NCBI RefSeq assembly: GCF_004138295.1
Contig: NZ_SCFM01000004.1
Location: 124,001-188,000, forward strand
Length of the DNA: 64,000 nt
Source of the DNA: Ectobacillus funiculus
GTDB taxonomy: Bacteria; Bacillota; Bacilli; Bacillales; Bacillaceae_G
Reading direction: 5' to 3'
In this document: positions 336-37,861 of the stretch, piece by piece
Layout: every line of letters begins with the position of its first letter
Numbering within the stretch: the stretch's first letter is position 1
Notes under the pieces: generated by a model
What the model was told of the DNA's origin: nothing
The model's input: the letters and a program-made list of their open reading frames with translations, nothing else
Databases searched by the model: none
Made by a program: the position numbers and the translations under genes

Positions 336-1163
336 ATGAGCTGGCAGCCGGAACAGCATGTTGAATTGCACGATTTCAACAACCTGACAAAAACACTTTC
401 ATTCAATTTTTGGGACGTATGTTGGTACAAAAACGAAAAAGAACGTGCAGCTTATATTGAGTACATAGATGAACAATACAATGCAGATAGACTAACAAAC
501 ATTTTAAGAAATGTATCAGATATTATCGGCGCGCATGTCTTGAATATCGCTAAGCAAGACTATGTACCGCAGGGAGCAAGTGTTACTGTATTAGTGTCAG
601 AAGGTCCCATTGTGGAAGTGCCAACTGAATCATTCGAAGAGTCACCTGGCCCTCTTCCCGAATCTGTAGTTTTAGCTTTAGATAAGAGCCACATCACCGT
701 TCATACTTATCCAGAGTACCATCCAACAGATGGTATTAGTACGTTCAGAGCTGATATTGATGTGTCTACGTGTGGAGAAATTTCACCACTTAAAGCTCTA
801 AATTATTTGATTCACTCATTTGAAGCAGATATTATGACTATTGACTATCGCGTTCGCGGCTTTACTAGAGATATACGAGGCCATAAATTATTTATTGATC
901 ATAATATTAGCTCAATTCAAAATTACATACCGGAAGAAATAAAACATTTATATGACATGATTGATGTGAATATCTATCAAGAAAACATTTTTCACACTAA
1001 ATGCAAACTTCGGGAATTCGACCTAGATCATTATTTGTTTGGATATACAAAAAACTCGTTAAGCGCTAAGGAAATGGAGAACATAACAAGCAAACTGCAA
1101 CAAGAAATGAACGAAATTTTTTATGGGAAAAATATAAATCCTGGGTCAATAAGACCGCATTAA
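336..1163 (+). CDS. speD: S-adenosylmethionine decarboxylase proenzyme, long (class 1A) form
   Basis: Pyruvoyl-dependent AdoMet decarboxylase makes the aminopropyl donor for spermidine synthesis. The 275-residue protein has the E. coli SpeD-type self-cleavage region [12 protein letters not shown], with predicted cleavage between Lys117 and Ser118; Ser118 would become the pyruvoyl group. The E. coli enzyme is 264 residues and cleaves at Lys111-Ser112, whereas the well-known B. subtilis enzyme (SpeH) is the short class 1B form of about 126 residues, so this is the longer class. AAGGAGGG lies just before the ATG. The gene is alone, divergent from a P-II gene, with no spermidine synthase beside it. 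A repeat copy with a terminator-like 3' end (1229-1336) follows it. Confidence 0.92.
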
Positions 1164-2160: not shown

Positions 2161-2311
2161 GAAAAAACACTTGATCCTTTGTTTTTTACGATTTTTTGTT
2201 TTTTTGGTTTTATGAAATTATTACGGTGAATGAAATTATGTGTTTCTGCATACTTATGCCTTCTACCTCCCTTTCCTTTTATTTTTAGTTGCTGATTCGA
2301 CAATTAATACA

Positions 2312-2331
2312 GCTGCCGGAATACCGGCAGC
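2312..2331. terminator. GC-rich perfect hairpin downstream of the six-gene operon
   Basis: GCTGCCGG-AATA-CCGGCAGC forms an 8-bp stem with a 4-base loop about 85 bp past the end of the operon. No clean T-run follows on the minus strand, so it may be a weak terminator or an mRNA 3' end stabiliser. Confidence 0.4.
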
Positions 2332-2414
2332 CCATAAGCTTCATTTTATATTTTAACTTTTATCCTGCTTTCCTCTCTCTATGTCACTTTCATCTCCTAG
2401 AAACCCATCCATTA

Positions 2415-3563
2415 TTAAAATCCCGATTTACGAGCTAACGGTTCGACGATTGTTTGCAAAATGAAGCATAGGATTTTCCATATATGCTTTCGATGTTTTG
2501 GTAAGTGCTGTACATACACAAAACTGTACTCATTTTCCTGCTCCGCCCCCCGGCTTCTCTTGAATCGACCAGCCCCTGCACTAAAATGACCTATATAGTT
2601 ATTTTGAACGACCTCTTCAAGAATAAGGTAAGACAACATGCGATAAAGCCCTTTCCTTTTATCAAGCGACGTATTATAACCTAGGATCGGAGTTGTTAAG
2701 ATCCCGTCTCTCGTAAAAAAGCCAATGGCACCATCTATTTTCCCATCCTTTTTCAACACCCTGTATTCCAATAAATGATGCTTGAAAGCATTTAAATAAT
2801 ATTCTTCCGTGAAAATAGGGTTATGCTCTGAATATTTTTCTATATACAGCTGATTGTATAATTTTCTTACCATTTTTATCTCATCTTCAGTAAGAGCATT
2901 CTGATTTAAGATTTCATAGCCGCTGTTTCTTAATAATCGTCTGTCATTATTCAAATCCTTTCGAGATTTCCGGTTCATTTTTTGCAGCTTTTCTGGATAA
3001 CAAAGGTATACAGAACGAGCAAATAATGGACAAAATCCTAATCCGGAAAGACATGAGAAAAGCTCAGGATATAAACGGCGATTCAATGAACGAAACATAA
3101 TTGCATGCGCAGGGAATTTTTCTTTCAAGAATAGAGCGATGTGTTCTAATTGCTTATGAGTCAGCTGATGATATAGGTTTGTAGATAAAAACCAATTATT
3201 TACTATAACTACTTTGTTGATTTGACTCCGTTTAAACCAGTGCCCCATTATCTGAATCGGAAGTAACAAAAGCTTCTCTAATAAGGGATTCTTAAGTTCC
3301 CAAAGCTCCTCTTTTGCATAAGAAATATAATGGGTATAAGGAGAACAAACATACGAATTTTCATATTCCTCATCATTTATTGTCAGAGGCAGAAGTAAGT
3401 GATCCACTTCTAACATATATGTCTTTGTATTGACATTCTGTATGAAGTACTTTGCTCCATTCCTAAGAATAGGGGTAAAATAATCTCTTATATAGTGACC
3501 ATCCTGTTTGGTGGACCAATCAATTTCATGCAAGGTGGATTTGTCATGGAGTTTGATATGCAT
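2415..3563 (-). CDS. GNAT-like acyltransferase, last gene of the biosynthetic operon
   Basis: A 382-residue protein without signal peptide. Its second half (about residues 190-350) reads like a GNAT/FemAB-type N-acyltransferase fold, with a basic stretch LQKMNRKSRKDLNNDRRLLR, a YRVLKKDGKIDGAIGFF strand pair and a GLYRML segment that resembles an acyl-CoA-binding turn. I place the start at the ATG at 3563, behind GAGGTG, rather than the TTG at 3575 that overlaps the upstream stop. Position at the end of the operon suggests it transfers an acyl group onto, or an amine into, the pathway product. The family call is tentative; the neighbours support membership in the pathway. Confidence 0.6.
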   Translation of the reverse strand: MHIKLHDKSTLHEIDWSTKQDGHYIRDYFTPILRNGAKYFIQNVNTKTYMLEVDHLLLPLTINDEEYENSYVCSPYTHYISYAKEELWELKNPLLEKLLLLPIQIMGHWFKRSQINKVVIVNNWFLSTNLYHQLTHKQLEHIALFLKEKFPAHAIMFRSLNRRLYPELFSCLSGLGFCPLFARSVYLCYPEKLQKMNRKSRKDLNNDRRLLRNSGYEILNQNALTEDEIKMVRKLYNQLYIEKYSEHNPIFTEEYYLNAFKHHLLEYRVLKKDGKIDGAIGFFTRDGILTTPILGYNTSLDKRKGLYRMLSYLILEEVVQNNYIGHFSAGAGRFKRSRGAEQENEYSFVYVQHLPKHRKHIWKILCFILQTIVEPLARKSGF

Positions 3564-3571
3564 ATAACACC

Positions 3572-4897
3572 TCAACTTAAAATCCTTTCAATTCGCTTTA
3601 GCTTTTTTTCAGAGGGCAGTATATCATATTCCGAATAAAAAATTGTCGGTCTTTCGCACCCTGCATCCCTCCACAAACGGTACAGTTCTTCACCTACAGC
3701 ATTTTCAATGCTTGACCTATTGTCATCCCTTTTTATCTTTAATTTTATTTCAATGAATAGATTGGGATGTTGGATAACTTTAAATTCTTCAATATCGGCG
3801 GCTGCCAGCATGACAGCCCTTCGAATAAAATCTGGAAACAAACTAATCTCTTTGGCGGTTGTTTTTCCTCTCCCTATAAAGACATCATCACATCGACCAT
3901 CGATTCTCTCTAGAGCAAGAAAAGGTGATCCGCAGGAACAAGGCTGTTTCTTTTCAATCAACAGATCATTTAAACGATAACGAATAATGGGTTGTGTTTT
4001 ACGACTGAAATCCGTAATAATTGGAATGAATATCCCTCGTCCCTTATCTACGTACTCCTTGTCTATATAGACAAGGTCTTCGTTCATATGAAGAATTCCT
4101 TGTTTGCATGTAGTAGCTAAAAATCCTTCTGTGCACTGATAAATTTGATGCATCACCTGTCCGAAGACAGATTGCATATATTTTTTATCAAGATCTTCAA
4201 GAACCTCTGCTACTGATATAACCTTTTTAGGAGCTATATGTATGTGTCCCTCCTCTTTCCATTCCGCAATTTTACGCAGCATAGAAGGTGGAGCTATCAA
4301 TATAGTAGGTCGTATTTCGTTCAGCCTTTTGATATGAGTTTCAAAGTAATCCAATAGATCAAAAAAGTGAAATGAAATCCGTTTGTTTTTCGTTGTTTCA
4401 TACAGATTACTATTTGCTCGCAAAAAAAACGCAATCTTTTGCTTCTTTAAAATGCTAGAGGGAAGAACCTTTGCTAAGATACTCCCCGCCCACAAATAAC
4501 GTTCCTCTTCCGAAACTAAGAATAGCCCCCTATTTCCACTTGTACCGGAAGACAATCCAATTGTGATATTGTGAATCGTAGGAGAAAAATTCCGTGTACG
4601 CTCTGCTTCAAATGCAACCTGGAATGCTTGTTCTTTTGTAATCCCTGCTGTATTTAAGCTATCGAAGTGTTCCATCATGATTTTTTTATCAATAATCGGA
4701 AGCTGCTCCCATTGTTGCGACGAAACTTCATTCATATATGGCTGATACATATTTTTATAGAAAACAGAATGTTGCAGCACAAACTGCATATGCTTTGCTA
4801 TTCGTGCATTTTGAAAGTTTCGCAGCTGCTCCTCTATCTTAAGTCCGGTCCTGTACTTAGTTTCGATGTATTTTTGGAGAATTTTCAAGTTATTCAT
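3572..4897 (-). CDS. adenylate-forming enzyme, CapK/PaaK (F390 synthetase-related) type
   Basis: The 441-residue protein belongs to the phenylacetate-CoA ligase/CapK branch of adenylate-forming enzymes. It has a Ser/Thr/Gly P-loop SSGTSGNRG at about residues 116-124, a YQCTEGFLA segment equivalent to the aromatic-acid ligase YxxTE motif, a CSCG pair and an R-I-D-G-R-C-D-D motif before the C-terminal domain. Such enzymes activate a carboxylate as an acyl-AMP. The ATG at 4897 lies inside the stop of the upstream gene (ATGAATAA), so translation is probably coupled. It is shorter than typical PaaK. The substrate is unknown; an acid made by the upstream ketosynthase and reductase is a reasonable guess. 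Confidence 0.75.
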   Translation of the reverse strand: MNNLKILQKYIETKYRTGLKIEEQLRNFQNARIAKHMQFVLQHSVFYKNMYQPYMNEVSSQQWEQLPIIDKKIMMEHFDSLNTAGITKEQAFQVAFEAERTRNFSPTIHNITIGLSSGTSGNRGLFLVSEEERYLWAGSILAKVLPSSILKKQKIAFFLRANSNLYETTKNKRISFHFFDLLDYFETHIKRLNEIRPTILIAPPSMLRKIAEWKEEGHIHIAPKKVISVAEVLEDLDKKYMQSVFGQVMHQIYQCTEGFLATTCKQGILHMNEDLVYIDKEYVDKGRGIFIPIITDFSRKTQPIIRYRLNDLLIEKKQPCSCGSPFLALERIDGRCDDVFIGRGKTTAKEISLFPDFIRRAVMLAAADIEEFKVIQHPNLFIEIKLKIKRDDNRSSIENAVGEELYRLWRDAGCERPTIFYSEYDILPSEKKLKRIERILS

Positions 4898-5741
4898 ACA
4901 CGATACCTTCTTGAATCTTTCTCCATGTGTACTCACAGTGCGTAGGCAATATTTCCAACTCAGAATTTTGCTTTGCTAAATGATGAAGCTTCATAATATT
5001 CTTTTGATAAGAAACTACATCAGCAGTTAAGATATTGGCAATTGCGCTTGGATAAATTAAATTTTGATACGTTTTGCTTAGCCACACCGCATCTGCGCAG
5101 AGGAAAACTTGCTTTCCGCTCGTCAGCGTAACGAATATCCCTAATTGTCCAATTGCATGTCCTGTCACATCTACTGCAAATACTGTACCATCTCCCCACA
5201 CATCATGCCCGGCAATAAAGGGATAAAACTGAGACGGGAGCTCTACAGAAGCCTGCTGGTCAAGAAGTTTCATCCTATCCTCTATGTTAGAGGGAAGGGT
5301 ATCTAGCAAGCAGCCCTTTCGTAAGGCCGCAAACTTGCTAATGCCCTGAATATCCGCATATGCTTTATGAAATGTTAGGATAGTTGCATCAGGAAAATCC
5401 TTCAGCCCTGCCGTGTGATCGCCATGGAAATGAGATAAAATGATGTAGCGAATTTCATCCGGTGATATGCCATCCTGGAGAAGCTGATTTTTAATAGATT
5501 GTTGTTCTTGAAAAAAGACAGGCGTTAATTTGGCGTATATAGAATAAGGAAAGCCTTTTGTTGCCTCCATAAAGTGCCTCGCATATCCTGTGTCAAATAA
5601 GATGTACCCATATTTATCATGATGAAGCAAGGCAACAATCGCAGGAAACTTCACCTGCTTCCAGCCGCCTTTCGCATATGCAATTCTTTCAGGGTGTGTA
5701 CAATACCCGCATTCATATAATTTTAGTCTCGTAATGCCCAT
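4890..5741 (-). CDS. metallo-beta-lactamase-fold hydrolase in biosynthetic operon
   Basis: The 283-residue protein has the classic metal-binding motif SHFHGDHTAGL (HxHxDH at residues 104-109), an upstream LFDTGYA strand, a distal GHAIGQLGIFV histidine, a CADAVWL aspartate and a C-terminal PTHCEYTW histidine. This set is complete for a dinuclear zinc hydrolase of the lactonase/thioesterase type. It overlaps the upstream reductase by 29 bases and the downstream adenylating enzyme by 8 bases, so it belongs to the operon. In the pathway it could hydrolyse a thioester or open a lactone; this is inference. Confidence 0.8.
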   Translation of the reverse strand: MGITRLKLYECGYCTHPERIAYAKGGWKQVKFPAIVALLHHDKYGYILFDTGYARHFMEATKGFPYSIYAKLTPVFFQEQQSIKNQLLQDGISPDEIRYIILSHFHGDHTAGLKDFPDATILTFHKAYADIQGISKFAALRKGCLLDTLPSNIEDRMKLLDQQASVELPSQFYPFIAGHDVWGDGTVFAVDVTGHAIGQLGIFVTLTSGKQVFLCADAVWLSKTYQNLIYPSAIANILTADVVSYQKNIMKLHHLAKQNSELEILPTHCEYTWRKIQEGIVYE

Positions 5742-6723
5742 GTGTATTCCACCATTCTACAAAGTGTTGAATTCCCTCTTCTATACTGACCCTTGGAAGG
5801 TAGCCAAGTTCAGTTGTTGCTTTCTTAATATCCAACGTTTGACTTTTTGACAACACACTTACTGTATATTTGGTAAGAAGCGGTTCTTTGCCAAACAATA
5901 TGGTTTTGGAAAGCAGCTCTAACACGTTCGCTATCATAAAAGCCTTTCGAAACGAAATATGTTTATAACGAAACTCCCGCCCGAGACGATGCATGACAGT
6001 TTCAATTACAGAATAGAGATTTACACGCACACCATTTGTAATATTATATTTTTGTCCCAATGTATATGTCGGAGAGTCCATACAAAGTAATAAAGCATCT
6101 ACAACATTTTCTATATATGTAAGATCGATTAAAACCTCATCACCTCCAATTTTTGGGAACATACCTTTTTCGCATACCTTGATGAGACGAGGAAGAATAG
6201 CATTGTCCCCCGGGCCAAATAAAGCTCTTGGTCGAATAGTGATAACAGGAAACCCCTCGCGATGAGCAGCGTCTACTTCTTGTTCCGCTAAATATTTAGT
6301 ATGGGCATAATGATTTACAAATGTCCTCGGTAAAGAATCCGTTTCTTTCACATTTTGTCTCCCATTATAGTAAAAATAAAGACTTGGTGTAGACACATGG
6401 ATAAGACGTTTCACAGCGGCGTGTTTGCTTCCTTCGATGACGTTCTTTGTACCAATGACATTCGAAAGGTAAAAATCCCGATATTTCCCCCATGGAGAAG
6501 AGAGCGCTCCGCTATGAAACACATAATCTTTATCTTTGCATACGGACGCGATAGCCGCTTTATCTTCTAAGGAACAAGGGATAAATGTAATGCCGTCCCT
6601 CTCAAGATCGCTTCCGATCTCTGTATTTCTGCCAATTGCTGTTACCTCATAACCTAAGCTATGCAGCCTAAGTGCCAGCTTTTTTCCTAAAAAACCAGTC
6701 GCTCCTGTTACTAACATCCTCAT
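5713..6723 (-). CDS. NAD(P)-dependent sugar-epimerase/3-beta-HSD-type reductase (OleD-like)
   Basis: Extended short-chain dehydrogenase of 336 residues. The Rossmann motif GATGFLG is at residues 7-13 and the catalytic YAHTK (YxxxK) follows STPSLYF at mid-protein. TIRPRALFGPGD is the usual segment after the active site. The general pattern resembles 3-beta-hydroxysteroid dehydrogenases and OleD, which reduces the beta-keto acid made by OleA. With a KAS III enzyme two genes upstream, reduction of a beta-keto intermediate is a sensible role. It starts 2 bases after the ATP-grasp stop. The OleB and OleC partners of olefin synthesis are absent, so the product is not the classic Ole hydrocarbon. 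Confidence 0.75.
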   Translation of the reverse strand: MRMLVTGATGFLGKKLALRLHSLGYEVTAIGRNTEIGSDLERDGITFIPCSLEDKAAIASVCKDKDYVFHSGALSSPWGKYRDFYLSNVIGTKNVIEGSKHAAVKRLIHVSTPSLYFYYNGRQNVKETDSLPRTFVNHYAHTKYLAEQEVDAAHREGFPVITIRPRALFGPGDNAILPRLIKVCEKGMFPKIGGDEVLIDLTYIENVVDALLLCMDSPTYTLGQKYNITNGVRVNLYSVIETVMHRLGREFRYKHISFRKAFMIANVLELLSKTILFGKEPLLTKYTVSVLSKSQTLDIKKATTELGYLPRVSIEEGIQHFVEWWNTHGHYETKII

Positions 6724-6725
6724 AC

Positions 6726-7889
6726 TTATTCACCGTCCCAGGAAATATCATACGTTGTTTGCTGCAATAGGGAGATGTTTCTCTTTCTACTTTCTCTCCA
6801 AAGTTTACATACGCTATAAAATTGATAAAAAAACGGCTTTTTGTCCCTATGTAAGTAGGTAATGTCCCGATGGGAAGTAATCACTTGAAACCAACGCTTT
6901 CTAACTTTTACATCCCGCAGGAACGAACCTCCGTATAAGAGCAAAGCTAAAGTAAGAGCCATTTTTGTTTCTTTATTGGGAAATAACACATCTTCTGTAT
7001 TTGTTCCTACAAATACAGAAACAATATCGCTGGAAAACAAATGTAACCCACTGGTTGTTCTTGGATTGCATTCAATCGGATACACCTTACCATCCTTTGT
7101 TACGATAAAATCAAAAGCAATTTGACCAGAATACTTCAGCTTTTCAACGAGTATTGAAACAAATGAAAAAATAGGATCACATTCTGTATGTTGAAACGCA
7201 ATGGTTGCCCCAAGACCAGCTGTAAATTCTGTTTGATATACAGAATGGGCAAGAAGCTTGCCGGTTTTTGCAATTGTATAAGAGCAATATTGAGTTCCAT
7301 CTAGCTTTTCTTGAATGAGCCACCCTACCCCTAAAGGCTTTTCCTGCGATAATAACTCTGATTTTGTAACAAATCGAACGCTATCTGAGAAACGGGAATA
7401 TACTGGTTTCAAGACAAACTCTTTTATATGAAGCTGTTCTATTTTTTCTTGATAGGAAAAGGAACCATCCGTTTCTATTGTAACTGGCGCATCCCACCCG
7501 AATTCATTTGTAAAACGGATAAATTCAGCCTTATTGTGAAGTACATTTAATGTGTCGATATCATCTACTAGCACACTGCAGTACGATTCGAAATATTCCT
7601 TGTACTTTGCAATATAAAATGTTTCCTCGCAAGTAGGAATAATCAGATCAATATGATAGTCTTCAATTATTTTTGTCATGGTCTGAACAAACAAGGCTGT
7701 CTCAAACTTCGGGGAAGGGACCTGCAAGAATTTCTTCACCGCATTTGACACCTTTGTTACCGCATAAGAGCAACTGTCCGCAGCATACACTTGTAAGCCT
7801 TGAGATTGCAGCAGTCTGCATAAATGCAAAGTTACTGGTGCTCGAGCACCAGTAACCAAAATGTTTTTAGGTTCACAACTAGTACTCAA
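6726..7889 (-). CDS. ATP-grasp carboxylate-amine ligase-like enzyme
   Basis: The protein has about 387 residues. An N-terminal Rossmann-like part (NILVTGARAPVTLHLCRLL) is followed by an ATP-grasp fold, recognisable by KPVYSRFSDSV, the LIQEKLDG strand and the metal-binding end IECNPRTTSGLHL. ATP-grasp enzymes of this kind ligate a carboxylate to an amine, thiol or alcohol through an acyl phosphate. I prefer a TTG start at 7889, which has GGAGGAG 6 bases upstream and overlaps the ketosynthase stop (CTTGAGTACTAG); a TTG at 7904 would lie within that binding site. It is the second gene of the operon. The substrate is unknown. Confidence 0.75.
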   Translation of the reverse strand: MSTSCEPKNILVTGARAPVTLHLCRLLQSQGLQVYAADSCSYAVTKVSNAVKKFLQVPSPKFETALFVQTMTKIIEDYHIDLIIPTCEETFYIAKYKEYFESYCSVLVDDIDTLNVLHNKAEFIRFTNEFGWDAPVTIETDGSFSYQEKIEQLHIKEFVLKPVYSRFSDSVRFVTKSELLSQEKPLGVGWLIQEKLDGTQYCSYTIAKTGKLLAHSVYQTEFTAGLGATIAFQHTECDPIFSFVSILVEKLKYSGQIAFDFIVTKDGKVYPIECNPRTTSGLHLFSSDIVSVFVGTNTEDVLFPNKETKMALTLALLLYGGSFLRDVKVRKRWFQVITSHRDITYLHRDKKPFFYQFYSVCKLWRESRKRNISLLQQTTYDISWDGE

Positions 7890-8871
7890 GCAAAACTCCT
7901 CCAATGGACAAGCCAGCTGATGTGCCTAATAGGAATACTGTATCTCCACGCTTAATTCTTCCTTGTTTTACCCCTTCGTAAAAAGCCAGCGGAATAGATA
8001 CGGAAATCATATTTCCATAATTCTCAATAATTTTCATAAATCTATCTTCCGAGATTCCAAGTTTTCTTCGAATCAAATTCATAGCAGGACCACTTGCCTG
8101 GTGCGGGACAACCATGGAAACATCGTCTAGAGAAAGGTTTGTGCCTTGAAATACCTTTTCTACAAAGTCAGGAAGAAGTTTCAAAGATAACTTGAATATA
8201 GCCGGGCCATCCATATCGAATAAAAAATCCTCTTTTGTTTCTTCATTATATCCTCTTGGATGAATCATAGTACCGCCCCCACGAATTTCAGACAAATGCG
8301 CACCAGCACTATATGTCTCCATATGGGAAAAAATAATGCCAGCAGTGCCACTTGCCGATTTTGAAATTACCATAGCAACGGCACCATCTCCGAACAATAT
8401 ACTGCTTTCATTCTGTCCCCAGTTTAATCCCACAGAAGAAATTTCTGAAGAAACTAATACTATGTTTTTGTATCTTCCTGCTTCAATCGCATACGAAATC
8501 ATATCAAGTGCTGTTACCCAGCTCAAACAAGTGGAGTTTACATCAAAGCATGGAATTCCCGAATGCTGAAGTCCCAATTGTTCCTGAATAAGGGAAGCTG
8601 TAGAAGGAATTGCCTGCTGTACTGTTCCGCTGCCAGAAATAATACAATCAATATCACAAAATGTAAGTCCAGCATCCTTCACCGCCTTTTTAGCTGCCTC
8701 CGCACCCATAAAAGATGAAGTTTCTCCATCTACGTAGTACCGTATTTTGACCCCGGTTTTACCTTCTGACCAGCCCTCTTTCGTACCAATGATAGCATCT
8801 ACTTCCGCAGAGGTTACCTTTCTTTTTGGCAAATACATGCCCATACCTACTATTCTGATGTTACGTCTCAT
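7879..8871 (-). CDS. 3-oxoacyl-ACP synthase III-like condensing enzyme (not housekeeping FabH)
   Basis: Thiolase-fold KAS III of 330 residues with the full catalytic triad: Cys115 in NSTCLSW, His257 in VPHQASGPAM and Asn287 in NYGNMIS. It is clearly divergent from the housekeeping FabH at 35115-36059: the active-site motif is STCLSW rather than ACSGF. Such enzymes prime secondary metabolite pathways or, like OleA, join two acyl chains. It is the first gene of the six-gene operon, with AAAGGAAG before the ATG and a long palindrome 155 bp upstream. Substrate chain length cannot be read from sequence. Confidence 0.85.
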   Translation of the reverse strand: MRRNIRIVGMGMYLPKRKVTSAEVDAIIGTKEGWSEGKTGVKIRYYVDGETSSFMGAEAAKKAVKDAGLTFCDIDCIISGSGTVQQAIPSTASLIQEQLGLQHSGIPCFDVNSTCLSWVTALDMISYAIEAGRYKNIVLVSSEISSVGLNWGQNESSILFGDGAVAMVISKSASGTAGIIFSHMETYSAGAHLSEIRGGGTMIHPRGYNEETKEDFLFDMDGPAIFKLSLKLLPDFVEKVFQGTNLSLDDVSMVVPHQASGPAMNLIRRKLGISEDRFMKIIENYGNMISVSIPLAFYEGVKQGRIKRGDTVFLLGTSAGLSIGGVLLEY

Positions 8872-9133: not shown

Positions 9134-9176
9134 TATAAAGGGAATTGGTTGTGAATTTTATAACGAGGTGAATAAT

Positions 9177-9641
9177 ATGACATTACAACGTACATTTATT
9201 ATGGTTAAGCCTGACGGTGTAAAACGAGGTTTGATTGGAGAAATCGTAAAACGTTTTGAACAAAAAGGGTTTCAGTTATTGAGAGCTGAGCTTATGGTAA
9301 TCGAAAAAGAAAAAGCGGAACTTCATTATATGGAACATAAGGAAAAACCGTTTTTTGGGGAATTGGTGGATTTCATTACATCTGGTCCTGTCTTTGCAAT
9401 GGTATGGGAGGGAGAAAACATTATCCAAGTCTCCCGCCTTATGATAGGAAGCACATCCCCTGAAAGTGCAGCTCCTGGGACTATTAGAGGAGACTTTGCA
9501 AACAGTAAACAAGAAAATATTATTCATGGTTCCGACTCTATTGTAAGTGCTGAAAGGGAAATTGCAAACTTGTTTGAACCATTATTAACACGTTTTTCAA
9601 ACCAAGACTTACCATATGATGAGCAAAGAAAAACCATCTAA
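9177..9641 (+). CDS. ndk: nucleoside diphosphate kinase
   Basis: Transfers the gamma phosphate of ATP to NDPs through a phosphohistidine. The 154-residue protein has the N-terminal [14 protein letters not shown] signature and the active-site NIIHGSDS with its catalytic His; [14 protein letters not shown] is the nucleotide-binding segment. I use the ATG at 9177, behind GAGGTG, rather than the GTG at 9168 that falls inside that binding site. It is slightly longer than the usual 148-residue Bacillus Ndk and differs from the consensus in places (for example [14 protein letters not shown]), so it could be a second copy beside the housekeeping one. It is divergent from the biosynthetic operon. Confidence 0.93.
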
Positions 9642-13563: not shown

Positions 13564-13741
13564 TTATACTATTACAACAAATAGGGTTAGATTCGACAAA
13601 TCTAGATTTCAGTAGTGTTGTATCATCCAGAAGCCTTACATTTTACTAAACTTATGCACAAAAACGTAAAAAATGCTAACCATTAAAGTTGGACATGCAT
13701 ATACTACCAATGTAACAAAGAAACTTAATAGAGAGGTGAAT

Positions 13742-14062
13742 ATGATGGGATATGGATATGAGAAACACGATGACGAATGCAAAAAATGCTATGACTATTC
13801 TTACGAAAAGTACTACATGAAGAAATGTTATTGCAAATGTTGTTACGAACCTTATTACCCAAAAGATGATAGTTATAAATCAGGCTACGACCATAAATCT
13901 GATTATGGCTATGATTATAAATCAAGCTACGACCATAAATCTGATTATGGCTATGATTATAAATCAGGCTACGACCATAAATCTGGTTATGGCTATGATT
14001 ATAAGAAAGACTACGATCATAAATCTGATTATAACTGTGGTTGTAAAAAGCGCTACTACTAA
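13742..14062 (+). CDS. tyrosine- and cysteine-rich tandem-repeat protein, possibly a spore coat protein
   Basis: About 106 residues, of which 28 are Tyr and 8 Cys. The N-terminal part has Cys clusters (ECKKC, KKCYCKCC). Three near-identical 14-residue repeats (YKSGYDHKSDYGYD type) and a fourth degenerate unit follow, and the C-terminus is CGCKKRYY. There is no signal peptide. GAGAGGTG precedes tandem ATGs at 13742/13745. Composition of this kind is usual for cross-linked spore coat or crust proteins of Bacillus (Tyr for dityrosine or oxidation, Cys for disulfides), but no named coat protein is matched. Transcription stops at the hairpin 14084-14121. Confidence 0.75.
   Translation: MMGYGYEKHDDECKKCYDYSYEKYYMKKCYCKCCYEPYYPKDDSYKSGYDHKSDYGYDYKSSYDHKSDYGYDYKSGYDHKSGYGYDYKKDYDHKSDYNCGCKKRYY
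13874..14035 (+). repeat. 42-bp tandem repeat inside the Tyr-rich gene
   Basis: Units at 13874-13915, 13916-13957 and 13958-13999 are almost identical; a fourth, degraded unit spans 14000-14035. The near-identity at DNA level suggests recent slippage or expansion, so copy number may vary between strains. Confidence 0.85.
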
Positions 14063-33852: not shown

Positions 33853-35088
33853 TTATAGCTTTTTAAAAATCAATGTTGCATTATGACCGCCAAATCCTAA
33901 TGAATTGGATAAAACAACATTCACATTTGCCTGCTTTGCGACATTTGGAACATAATCCAAATCAAGTTCTTCATCAGGTGCTTCATAATTAATTGTTGGA
34001 GGAATAATTCCATCACGAATGGCTAAAAGAGAAAAAATTGCTTCAATCGCTCCAGCTGCTCCTAATAGGTGTCCCGTCATCGATTTTGTCGAGCTAACAG
34101 CCAGCTTATAAGCATGCTCTCCAAAAACCTCTTTAATTGCCGTTGTTTCATATAAATCATTATAATACGTGGACGTACCATGGGCATTAATATAATCCAC
34201 TTGTTCATGGGAAATACCAGCGTCTTGGATTGCTAATTTCATCGCTCGCTGACCGCCTTCGCCATTTGGTGCAGGAGTCGTAATATGGTGAGCGTCCCCA
34301 GTAGCACCATAACCAACAAGCTCTCCATAAATATTGGCACCACGTGCTAATGCGTGCTCTAATTCTTCCATAATAATAATCCCGGAACCTTCTGCAATTA
34401 CAAATCCATCACGGTTTTTATCAAATGGACGACTTGCCGTTTTTGGATCAGGATTCGCGGAAAGAGCTGTCATATTTGAAAATCCAGCAACTGTCATTTC
34501 TGTAATAGCAGCTTCTGTTCCGCCTGCAATCATAATATCAGCATGACCATTTTGAATAACACGAAATGCATCCCCGATAGAATTTGCGCCAGAGGCACAC
34601 GCAGTAACAGAACAGTTGTTGATTCCCTTTGCTCCTAATTCAATAGACACACGACCTGAAGCTATATCCGGTATCAGCATTGGAATAATAAACGGACTTA
34701 CACGCTTTGGCCCTTTATCTAAAAACCGCTTATGTTGTTCCTCAAATGCATCTAAACCGCCAATCCCAGAACCAATCCATACTCCAGCACGCTCTGGATC
34801 TACATTTTCTCCTATTTGAAGTCCCGCATCTTTTACGGCCATCTTACTTGCAGCAATAGCAAGCTGAGTAAAACGAGCCATTCTCTTTGCTTCTTTGCTG
34901 TCCATAAATTCTTCTGGTGTGAAGTTCTTTACTTCCCCTGCCACTTTTACATTAAACTTCTCCGTATCAATCCTAGTCATAGGAGAAATCCCTGACACAC
35001 CTTTTTTAATATTTTCCCATGTCGTGTAAGCATCGTTTCCTAAAGGCGTTACAGCTCCAATACCTGTAATAACTACTCTTTTCTTCAT
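33853..35088 (-). CDS. fabF: beta-ketoacyl-ACP synthase II
   Basis: The 411-residue elongating condensing enzyme has the active-site Cys164 in [12 protein letters not shown], the catalytic HGTSTYYND and [13 protein letters not shown] histidines, and the C-terminal [12 protein letters not shown]. It catalyses malonyl-ACP condensation in type II fatty acid synthesis. The ATG at 35088, behind GAGGGGG, is preferred over one 20 codons upstream. It follows fabH by 26 bases in the usual Bacillus fabHA-fabF order. Confidence 0.95.
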
Positions 35089-35114
35089 TGTTTTTCCCCC
35101 TCTTTTATATAGAA

Positions 35115-36059
35115 CTACTTTCCCCACCTTAAGCATACGGAGCCCCAAGTTAGCCCAGCTCCAAATCCAACCATCACAATAACATCATCCTCATGAATGA
35201 GACCATTTTGGATTTCAGTAAACAGAGCTAACGGAATGGAAGCTGCAGAAGTATTTCCATGTTTCTTTACAGTTGCAGAAACCCTCTCAGTTTCAAGGCC
35301 AAACCTTTCTCTTGCTGCATCAATAATGCGGATGTTTGCTTGGTGCGGCACAAGAAAATTAACATCTTCCTTCTGAAGACCTGCCTTTTCCACAACATTC
35401 AGGCTGGATTCAGGCATTTGCCGAACGGCAAATTTAAAAACCTCTCTACCGTTCATTTTTACGGTATTAGTTATCTTATCTACTAGCAGGTGTTTACCTC
35501 CAGCACCGTCCGCACCTAGTTCAAAAGATAAAATGCCTCTTCCTTTTGAGACCTCACTAAGTACAACAGCGCCAGCACCGTCACCAAATAACACACATGT
35601 ATTTTTATCTGACCAATCAATAATTTTAGAAAACTTTTCACTGCCGATTACTAAAACATTTTTATATGCACTGGTTTCAATAAATTGTTGGGCGGTAACT
35701 AAAGCATATATAAATCCTGAACAAGCAACGTTAATATCCATCGCAGGTACATGTTTTATACCGAGAGCCGCTTGTACCATACAAGCAACTGATGGAAAAG
35801 CAGCATCAGGTGTTGCTGTAGCAACTAAAATTAAATCGATATCCTCAGCATCTAAAGATGCATGTAAAAGGGCATTTTTCGCAGCCATAATTGCCATATG
35901 GGACGTATCCATATCATCAGTCGCAACTCTGCGTTCTTCAATGCCTGTTCTTGTACGAATCCATTCATCACTTGTGTCCACTATTTTTTCCAAATCAAAA
36001 TTTGTTACAATATTATCTGGAACATAAGCACCCACACCGATAATCCCAACACATTTCAT
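35115..36059 (-). CDS. fabH: beta-ketoacyl-ACP synthase III
   Basis: The 314-residue initiating condensing enzyme joins an acyl-CoA primer to malonyl-ACP. The triad is Cys113 (VACSGF), His239 (VPHQANIRI) and Asn269 (HGNTSAAS). [14 protein letters not shown] is the usual N-terminal signature. It is first in the fabH-fabF operon. A palindrome at 36082-36098 in its leader resembles a FapR operator. It is distinct from the diverged KAS III at 7879-8871. Confidence 0.95.
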
Positions 36060-37083: not shown

Positions 37084-37839
37084 CTACAATGCTAGCTCTA
37101 GAACAATCGGACAATGATCACTTCCCATTACATGTGAGTGAATATGCGCTTCCTTTATTACTCCCCTCAATTTTTCTGAGACGATAAAATAGTCAATGCG
37201 CCATCCTATATTTCTCTCCCTCACTTTGTTCATATAGGACCACCATGTATAAGCATCTATTTTGTTTGGATGTAGACATCTAAACGTATCAACGAACCCC
37301 GCTTCTAATAATGCCGTCATCTTCTCGCGCTCTTCTTCCGTAAAACCAGAATTCCCCCTATTGGCTCTTGCATTTTTTAGGTCTATTTCGCAGTGAGCTA
37401 CATTTAAATCTCCACATAAAACTACAGGCTTGCTTTTGTTCAATTCCTGAAGATAATTACGTACCTCATCCTCCCAAGAAAGCCTAAATTCAAGTCTAGC
37501 TAAATCCCTTTGAGCATTTGGTGTATATACATTAACCAAATAAAATTCTGCAAAATCTAGGGTAATGATTCTCCCTTCAGGCTCTTCGTTCTTTATGCCA
37601 ATGCCATATTTTACAGACAGCGGTTTCTTTTTGGTAAATATAGCCGTGCCTGAATACCCTTTTTTCACCGCATAATTCCAATATTGAAAGTAGTTTTCTA
37701 AATCAAGTTCAATTTGTCCTGCCTGTAACTTGGTTTCTTGGACACAAAATATATCCGCATCCACCCCTTTAAAATATTCTAAAAACCCTTTGCGTACACA
37801 TGCTCTAATGCCGTTAACATTCCAAGAAATGAGTTTCAT
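37084..37839 (-). CDS. exoA: exodeoxyribonuclease III / AP endonuclease
   Basis: The 251-residue EEP-fold nuclease has the N-terminal MKLISWNVNGIRACV, the FCVQETKLQ metal glutamate, VVLCGDLNVAH and the C-terminal GSDHCPIVLEL catalytic His. It cuts DNA at abasic sites and removes 3' blocks in base excision repair. It is followed upstream on the same strand by a HAD phosphatase gene 22 bases away, so the two may be co-transcribed. Confidence 0.95.
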   Translation of the reverse strand: MKLISWNVNGIRACVRKGFLEYFKGVDADIFCVQETKLQAGQIELDLENYFQYWNYAVKKGYSGTAIFTKKKPLSVKYGIGIKNEEPEGRIITLDFAEFYLVNVYTPNAQRDLARLEFRLSWEDEVRNYLQELNKSKPVVLCGDLNVAHCEIDLKNARANRGNSGFTEEEREKMTALLEAGFVDTFRCLHPNKIDAYTWWSYMNKVRERNIGWRIDYFIVSEKLRGVIKEAHIHSHVMGSDHCPIVLELAL

Positions 37840-37861
37840 AAATACTGGTGTTCTCCTTGTT

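Follow-up and report, generated by a model that had tools for sequence, protein, structure and literature searches.

In a 64,000-nucleotide stretch of the Ectobacillus funiculus genome (contig NZ_SCFM01000004.1, positions 124,001 to 188,000; the whole stretch is called the window here), six genes packed on the minus strand at 2415-8871 were found to be a real, conserved enzyme set and not a local oddity. The operon is not peculiar to E. funiculus: a core quartet, encoding a ketoacyl-acyl carrier protein synthase III-type condensing enzyme (KAS), an extended short-chain dehydrogenase/reductase (SDR), a metallo-beta-lactamase-fold hydrolase (MBL) and an adenylate-forming enzyme (adenylase, ADEN in gene orders), is widespread, with an ATP-grasp ligase (GRASP) and a GNAT-like protein (GNAT) as optional members. 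By sequence comparison, the KAS has its closest relatives of solved structure in the chain-fusing ketosynthases MxnB and CorB. We regard it as nearly certain that the six genes form one biosynthetic unit and as quite probable that its product is acyl-derived; the more specific version, in which this would be a lipid-type operon whose four-enzyme core condenses two acyl units, we put a little short of an even chance. The features of the operon are:

7879-8871, minus strand: KAS III-type condensing enzyme, core gene 1 (PRK07204, 532 bits).
6726-7904, minus strand: ATP-grasp ligase, accessory (PRK06849, 414 bits; Pfam ATP-grasp_3).
5713-6723, minus strand: NAD(P)-dependent extended SDR, OleD-like, core gene 2 (NF042422, 226 bits, below cut-off).
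4890-5741, minus strand: MBL-fold hydrolase, lactonase-like, core gene 3 (AttM, 96 bits, below cut-off; HxHxDH intact).
3572-4936, minus strand: F390 synthetase-related / PaaK-type adenylate-forming enzyme, core gene 4 (TIGR02304, 600 bits).
2415-3575, minus strand: GNAT/FemAB-like putative transferase, accessory, a weak assignment (FemAB_like, 20.8 bits, below cut-off).
2311-2332, minus strand: terminator-like hairpin of 9 pairs (7 G-C) with a T-containing tail (consensus match only).

The open reading frame (ORF) list of the window places six minus-strand frames exactly where a preliminary description, made from the sequence alone, had seen six overlapping or touching genes. With the longest starts there are four overlaps, of 26, 29, 47 and 4 nt, and a 2-nt gap separates the ATP-grasp and SDR genes; later in-frame starts look better placed and would trim the overlaps of the ATP-grasp and adenylase genes and turn that of the GNAT-like gene into a small gap, and even with these alternative starts the six genes remain tightly packed. 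The hairpin (2332-2311 on the minus strand) sits directly past the GNAT-like gene, the last of the operon, in a region with 15 terminator-like sites observed against 5.0 expected (consensus match only). The same description had proposed a single biosynthetic unit without polyketide synthase (PKS) or nonribosomal peptide synthetase (NRPS) modules, and Pfam scans of the six proteins found none, the longest ORF listed in window positions 1-40000 being 554 amino acids; nor does the ORF list hold a transporter or regulator gene inside the six-gene operon, as had also been stated. An anti-phage system was rejected as a candidate, as none of the six proteins matched any PADLOC family at E<=0.001. A search for a plasmid-borne copy of the whole operon at the DNA level gave no match, and no relative of the operon was found among viral contigs.

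Seen only from its own family, the gene set could be taken for chance neighbours or for a set in decay, as TIGR02304 was matched above cut-off in only 1 of 19 genomes there, the window's own. In a survey of the phylum, 9 of 398 evenly drawn genomes matched at E<=1e-40 (the window genome included), while matches at E<=1e-60 were obtained in 124 of the 344 genomes in the family that includes Paenibacillus assamensis (G416), and 33 of 147 genomes matched in a family of Bacilli with ~2-Mb genomes, in whose loci ffh- and guaA-like genes were read as neighbours. By skipping down the 124 ranked matches, 53 Paenibacillus-family loci were chosen by hand and not at random, and seven loci with merged or overlapping ORFs (L088, L125, L128, L131, L132, L136 and L138) were completed via domain coordinates and tblastn. 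The order KAS-GRASP-SDR-MBL-ADEN-GNAT was present in 34 of the 53 chosen loci and the same order minus GNAT in 17, with the remaining two lacking the ATP-grasp and GNAT genes (L086) or an MBL gene beside the others (L099); counted by gene, the quartet was in order in 52/53, ATP-grasp was present in 52/53 and GNAT in 35/53. All 8 loci examined out of the 33 in the ~2-Mb family had the order SDR-MBL-ADEN-KAS. Four Paenibacillus species found via the KAS alone, and a Paenibacillus urinalis plasmid, had the complete six-gene set arranged as in the window, and Pontibacillus five of the six. That the genes travel together, a matter the preliminary description had left to a neighbourhood survey, was borne out by the quartet being kept in 52/53 and 8/8 loci.

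Divergence within the set was also congruent. Distances between core proteins correlated at r = 0.92-0.95 for each of the six pairs (75 of 79 loci with all four), a value reached by 0 of 500 permutations for any pair, and the ATP-grasp and GNAT proteins each gave r = 0.91 against the adenylase (63 and 42 loci, respectively); related genomes are not independent, and these correlations express congruence and not a significance level. Three of the 79 loci (L023, L024 and L032) have no KAS in range, hence the count of 76 operon KASs. Because gene order is conserved, a chance neighbourhood is excluded, and with congruent divergence, open frames and conserved catalytic motifs besides, the chance-or-decay explanation is refuted by the survey and keeps practically no probability.

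Two further gene arrangements were seen among these loci. In many Paenibacillus-family loci, including L020, L021, L022, L094, L097 and L108, a second short-chain SDR (~290-325 amino acids, with TGTSSGFG close to its start) lies inside the operon or comes after it. L023 and L024 have a lone TIGR02304 gene followed by a shared ~405-amino-acid protein (a sub-threshold HGSNAT_cat match in L023), which may point to a different role for adenylases of this family.

Beyond Bacillota, 69 plasmid records had an adenylase match and 13 were opened, of which 11 had a contiguous quartet. The other two are Pseudomonas megaplasmids (L032 and L034) with the operon genes scattered over 10-20 kb among hypothetical genes; L032 was scored ADEN-GRASP only, though its KAS, SDR and MBL genes lie 15-19 kb off. 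Contiguous quartets were found in Ketogulonicigenium, Paracoccus, Pseudomonas sp. FeN3W, two Rhizobium records, Paraburkholderia and E. coli, and in the unannotated records of Burkholderia stagnalis and Fusobacterium vincentii. Homologues of all six genes occur in Paraburkholderia, in the order KAS-SDR-MBL-ADEN-GRASP-GNAT, and in Rhizobium sp. BT03, with ATP-grasp on the opposite strand, and the quartets of Paraburkholderia and of two Rhizobium records have GNAT homologues next to them. Since all six are found together in Paraburkholderia and Rhizobium sp. BT03, the ATP-grasp and GNAT genes count as optional members of the system. The F. vincentii locus (L146) has the order of the ~2-Mb Bacilli family, SDR-MBL-ADEN-KAS, and is 49-60% identical to L140, which suggests transfer between the two groups; the L146 record, of 2.1 Mb, is filed as a plasmid yet is chromosome-sized.

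On the E. coli JJ2434 chromosome (L035:6001-12882) the quartet stands without ATP-grasp and is followed by PAP2, FA_hydroxylase and FA_desaturase genes (Pfam), with narI and tRNA-Tyr/purU flanking the segment there. Of 5426 complete E. coli genomes, 672 have a match to the segment, and in 671 the match covers at least 80% of it; no description of the segment was found in open-access literature. Other neighbours of the quartet are a glycosyltransferase gene (L019, and an MGT-like one in L086), a DUF3419 protein gene (record label) and, in Ketogulonicigenium and Paracoccus records, a sulfotransferase gene beside a TetR regulator (record labels). We read this as a constant core quartet with swappable tailoring genes. 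Two Legionella candidates were dropped: a KAS match in Legionella adelaidensis lies in an ordinary fab cluster, and for lpg2228, considered as a possible relative, excerpts of papers gave expression tables and no pathway information.

The KAS III, ATP-grasp and adenylating families named in the preliminary description were confirmed, with the curated cut-offs of PRK07204, PRK06849 and TIGR02304 all exceeded; these models name no product. The window KAS is a PRK07204 equivalog well above the cut-off of 402, under which the E. coli KAS (332 bits) and the L019 KAS (288 bits) both stay. Its catalytic triad is C115, H257 and N287, and these three residues do not vary among 76/76 operon KASs. Compared with solved structures in the PDB, the window KAS matched MxnB (4v2p) at 254 bits and CorB (4yuc) at 245 bits, ahead of the best FabH at 190 bits; lower matches were 3h76 (106 bits), presumably PqsD, the PQS enzyme, 3row/3s21 (60 bits), which we take to be OleA chains, and PqsC (54 bits). 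The divergent E. coli KAS also matched MxnB first (171 bits), followed by CorB (157) and FabH (149).

In the preliminary description the KAS had been likened to OleA, and this comparison fails at the distinguishing glutamate. OleA (E117) and PpyS (E105) use a glutamate from the partner subunit, and MxnB and CorB have V94 there, according to excerpts of PMC4578411. The corresponding residue in the window KAS is I88, which lies 27 residues ahead of the catalytic Cys, the same spacing as in MxnB by our count, and the 76 operon KASs have 39 I and 37 L; the position was placed via V94 of MxnB, as given in those excerpts, and a KAS/MxnB alignment, and not via an aligned OleA sequence. The OleA mechanism is unlikely because I or L replaces Glu in 76/76 operon KASs, and OleA-type condensation was rejected as the mechanism of a KAS that stands nearer MxnB and CorB.

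An Ole-type olefin or beta-lactone pathway with replaced parts, the KAS in the role of OleA, the SDR of OleD, the adenylase of OleC (beta-lactone synthesis) and the MBL enzyme of OleB, could still be proposed from the two OleD models that are the best matches of the SDR (226 and 203 bits) and from adenylating and lactonase-like enzymes that mirror OleC and OleB by chemistry; like OleABCD, the operon brings a thiolase-fold condensing enzyme, an OleD-like reductase and an adenylating enzyme together. Besides the missing glutamate, what makes this pathway improbable is that 3row/3s21, taken to be OleA chains, reached 60 bits against 254 for MxnB, that the SDR is far under the OleD cut-off of 580, and that neither an alpha/beta hydrolase (OleB) nor a PF00501 enzyme (OleC) appeared in Pfam scans of the six proteins, in line with the earlier remark that OleB and OleC are missing. 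Slightly more improbable still is a Pqs-like pathway, in which the PaaK-type enzyme would activate an aromatic or other small acid starter, the KAS III would extend it and the MBL enzyme would serve as a PqsE-like thioesterase. The enzyme classes are the three of pqsA/D/E, and TIGR02304 is nearest to aryl/phenylacetate-CoA ligases, but 3h76 (presumably PqsD) and PqsC reached 106 and 54 bits against 254 for MxnB, no row named PqsE was among the 44 PDB matches of the MBL enzyme at E<=1, and the genes beside the E. coli quartet are of lipid type.

For the SDR, the best profile was OleD NF042422, followed by the second OleD model, and the best PDB match was a sterol-4-alpha-carboxylate 3-dehydrogenase (decarboxylating) at 84 bits. 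OleD and sterol-carboxylate dehydrogenase act on alpha-substituted beta-keto or beta-hydroxy acids, and such substrates fit a fused product. The best profiles of the MBL enzyme were the AttM lactonase (96 bits, cut-off 390) and 4-pyridoxolactonase (77 bits), both under their cut-offs, and acyl-homoserine lactone lactonases ranked first in the PDB; the enzyme has the MBL fold and HxHxDH motif of the AttM, AiiA and GcL lactonases, with SHxHxDH, GHA and a later Asp kept among aligned homologues, and differs from them in scoring far under cut-off and in being encoded inside a biosynthetic operon. The adenylase is F390 synthetase-related (TIGR02304, 600 bits, cut-off 251.9), with the ANL-type motifs SSGTSG, YQxTEG, RYxLxD and GRxDD and a C-terminal Lys kept in 79 aligned sequences; its best PDB match, the phenylacetate-CoA ligase 9s3l, is a distant relative (52 bits). 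The claim of intact catalytic motifs held for the KAS, SDR, MBL enzyme and adenylase, whose motifs are kept across aligned homologues.

The two accessory proteins were placed less firmly. The ATP-grasp protein is just above the PRK06849 cut-off (414 bits against 406), and a PDB sequence search gave no match at E<=0.1. Its AlphaFold model, made like that of the GNAT-like protein with five related sequences supplied, is of low confidence (predicted local distance difference test score, pLDDT, 61) and matches the carbamoyl-phosphate-synthase-like (CPS-like) structure 2pn1, the L-amino-acid ligases 3vot and 4wd3 and many biotin carboxylases; it is too poor to serve as more than a hint. A role as a carboxylate-amine ligase making an amide is only a guess because the model is of low confidence and matches several fold relatives. 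The earlier assignment of the sixth protein as a GNAT-like transferase is weakly supported: public records label its homologues 'GNAT family', whereas Pfam gave only a FemAB_like match of 20.8 bits, under the cut-off of 27, and there was no NCBIfam match and no PDB sequence match; its AlphaFold model (pLDDT 50.5) is too poor to carry weight.

For substrates, reaction order, head groups and product, we infer the following scheme. The MxnB/CorB-like KAS would load an acyl chain on Cys115 and condense it with another activated unit to an alpha-substituted beta-keto product; this other unit would most likely be a beta-ketoacyl thioester, whose alpha-carbon may be acidic enough without the glutamate of OleA. 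In excerpts of PMC5724707, MxnB is described as joining two beta-keto chains, both on carrier proteins, in two substrate tunnels. The OleD-like SDR would then reduce the ketone to a hydroxyl, the lactonase-like MBL enzyme would liberate the free acid by hydrolysing either the thioester or a lactone arising at release, and the F390 synthetase-related enzyme would re-activate that acid as an acyl-AMP. Lineage-specific enzymes would finally attach a head group, in the window operon probably an amide-linked amine or amino acid added via the ATP-grasp and GNAT/FemAB-like proteins, and elsewhere by a glycosyltransferase, a sulfotransferase, the DUF3419 protein or the phosphatase, fatty-acid hydroxylase and desaturase. 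The fatty-acid desaturase, fatty-acid hydroxylase and PAP2 genes after the E. coli quartet support this lipid link. The product derived from a beta-keto or beta-hydroxy acid that had been proposed before stays the best guess; what the data establish is the enzyme classes and that they occur together.

The KAS reaction remains, on the sequences compared, either MxnB-like with a beta-ketoacyl nucleophile or FabH-like with malonyl. In FabH-like elongation the KAS would extend an unusual acyl starter with malonyl-ACP (acyl carrier protein), the SDR would reduce the resulting linear beta-keto chain, the MBL enzyme release it and the adenylase activate it, with no chain fusion. We consider this somewhat unlikely. 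The window KAS scored 226 bits to the FabH model TIGR00747, whose curated cut-off of 292 is unmet, and MxnB and CorB lie 55-65 bits above the best FabH. A small tree was built from 25 sequences, and its 17 operon KASs share Q86, G199 and S260 with MxnB and CorB; these residues occur in 0 of the 4 FabH-type sequences, which the tree grouped apart with a support of 0.97 (the row 'ownparalog_L001' is the longest ORF of the L001 locus, which reads as a FabF-type neighbour, and serves as a distant outgroup only, not as a KAS III paralog). A housekeeping-type FabH is, moreover, a separate gene in the window, and the relatives of the SDR prefer alpha-substituted acids.

Several observations weigh against the scheme with chain fusion as a whole, the first of them in favour of FabH-like elongation. 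The Cys-His-Asn triad of FabH is retained, intact in 76/76, alongside the 226 bits to FabH, and A92 and D110 are common to the operon KAS and FabH and absent from MxnB and CorB, which also carry an insertion near 244 unlike the operon KAS. MxnB and CorB were nested among operon KASs only through the Ketogulonicigenium sequence L033 (support 0.84), without which they would form a sister group. In excerpts of PMC4578411 they are placed inside the FabH clade, which would fit the operon KASs being a FabH-derived group. For the SDR and MBL enzyme, the closest named families have curated cut-offs far above the scores reached, the matches behind the ATP-grasp and GNAT roles are weak, and the ORF list shows no gene for an ACP or phosphopantetheinyl transferase in the operon.

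Set against described systems, the KAS resembles MxnB (myxopyronin) and CorB (corallopyronin) in 39.8% identity in our alignment, the triad, the lack of an OleA-type Glu and the shared Q86, G199 and S260. It differs at A92 and D110 and in being tied to SDR, MBL and adenylase genes. MxnB and CorB form a pyrone at the terminus of PKS/NRPS assembly lines (excerpts of PMC5724707), whereas the six-gene operon has no PKS or NRPS. The PpyS/PyrS pyrone synthases are likewise stand-alone ketosynthases for fatty-acid-derived chains, but PpyS requires E105, where the operon KAS group has I or L (excerpts of PMC4578411). The preliminary description had not recognised the chemistry set as a described cluster, and neither a matching published cluster nor a product of the set was found in full-text open-access literature, which leaves out most subscription papers and bioRxiv. 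Among papers mentioning F390 synthetase and similar names, excerpts of PMC2649909, PMC5467263, PMC9823363 and PMC10850344 do not describe it; among the mutants of a transposon screen in kiwifruit-canker Pseudomonas is one affected in a gene for 'coenzyme F390 synthetase' (excerpts of PMC9823363). The parts are of known kinds, and the literature searched appears to hold no record of their combination, of how widely it is spread or of the KAS group.

Elsewhere in the window, a nucleoside diphosphate kinase gene (9168-9641) adjoins the operon; its identity to the best match ranges from 64 to 68% across the 18 other family genomes, and it has a second copy on another contig of the same genome. Positions 13673-14062 encode a small protein rich in Tyr, Asp, Lys and Gly, in which KSGYDHKSDYGYDY-like units recur. 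Neighbouring FabF- and FabH-type genes (33853-36059, read from translations; the FabH-type gene at 35115-36059) lie apart from the operon KAS and are apparently a housekeeping pair. In the sister genome G002, a SpeD-like gene (window 336-1163) adjoins a stretch matching window 37604-37842, so in one of the two lineages this region has undergone rearrangement or acquired sequence.

The widest reading of these data, which we hold to be rather unlikely as a whole, is that the quartet would be a general and so far undescribed bacterial lipid module spanning Bacillota, Fusobacteriota and Pseudomonadota, fusing two fatty acyl chains into a mycolate-like alpha-alkyl-beta-hydroxy acid with neither the OleA glutamate nor PKS or NRPS modules, decorated by head-group enzymes of each lineage and the source from which MxnB and CorB were recruited. 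The set would supply chain-fusing ketosynthases of the MxnB/CorB type with a home and an origin, and three NCBI protein families with a shared function. Among complete E. coli genomes the quartet is an accessory trait, carried by about 1 in 8, and an enzyme set kept in soil Bacilli, streptococcus-like small Bacilli genomes, Fusobacterium, proteobacterial plasmids and 671 of 5426 E. coli likely makes something useful.

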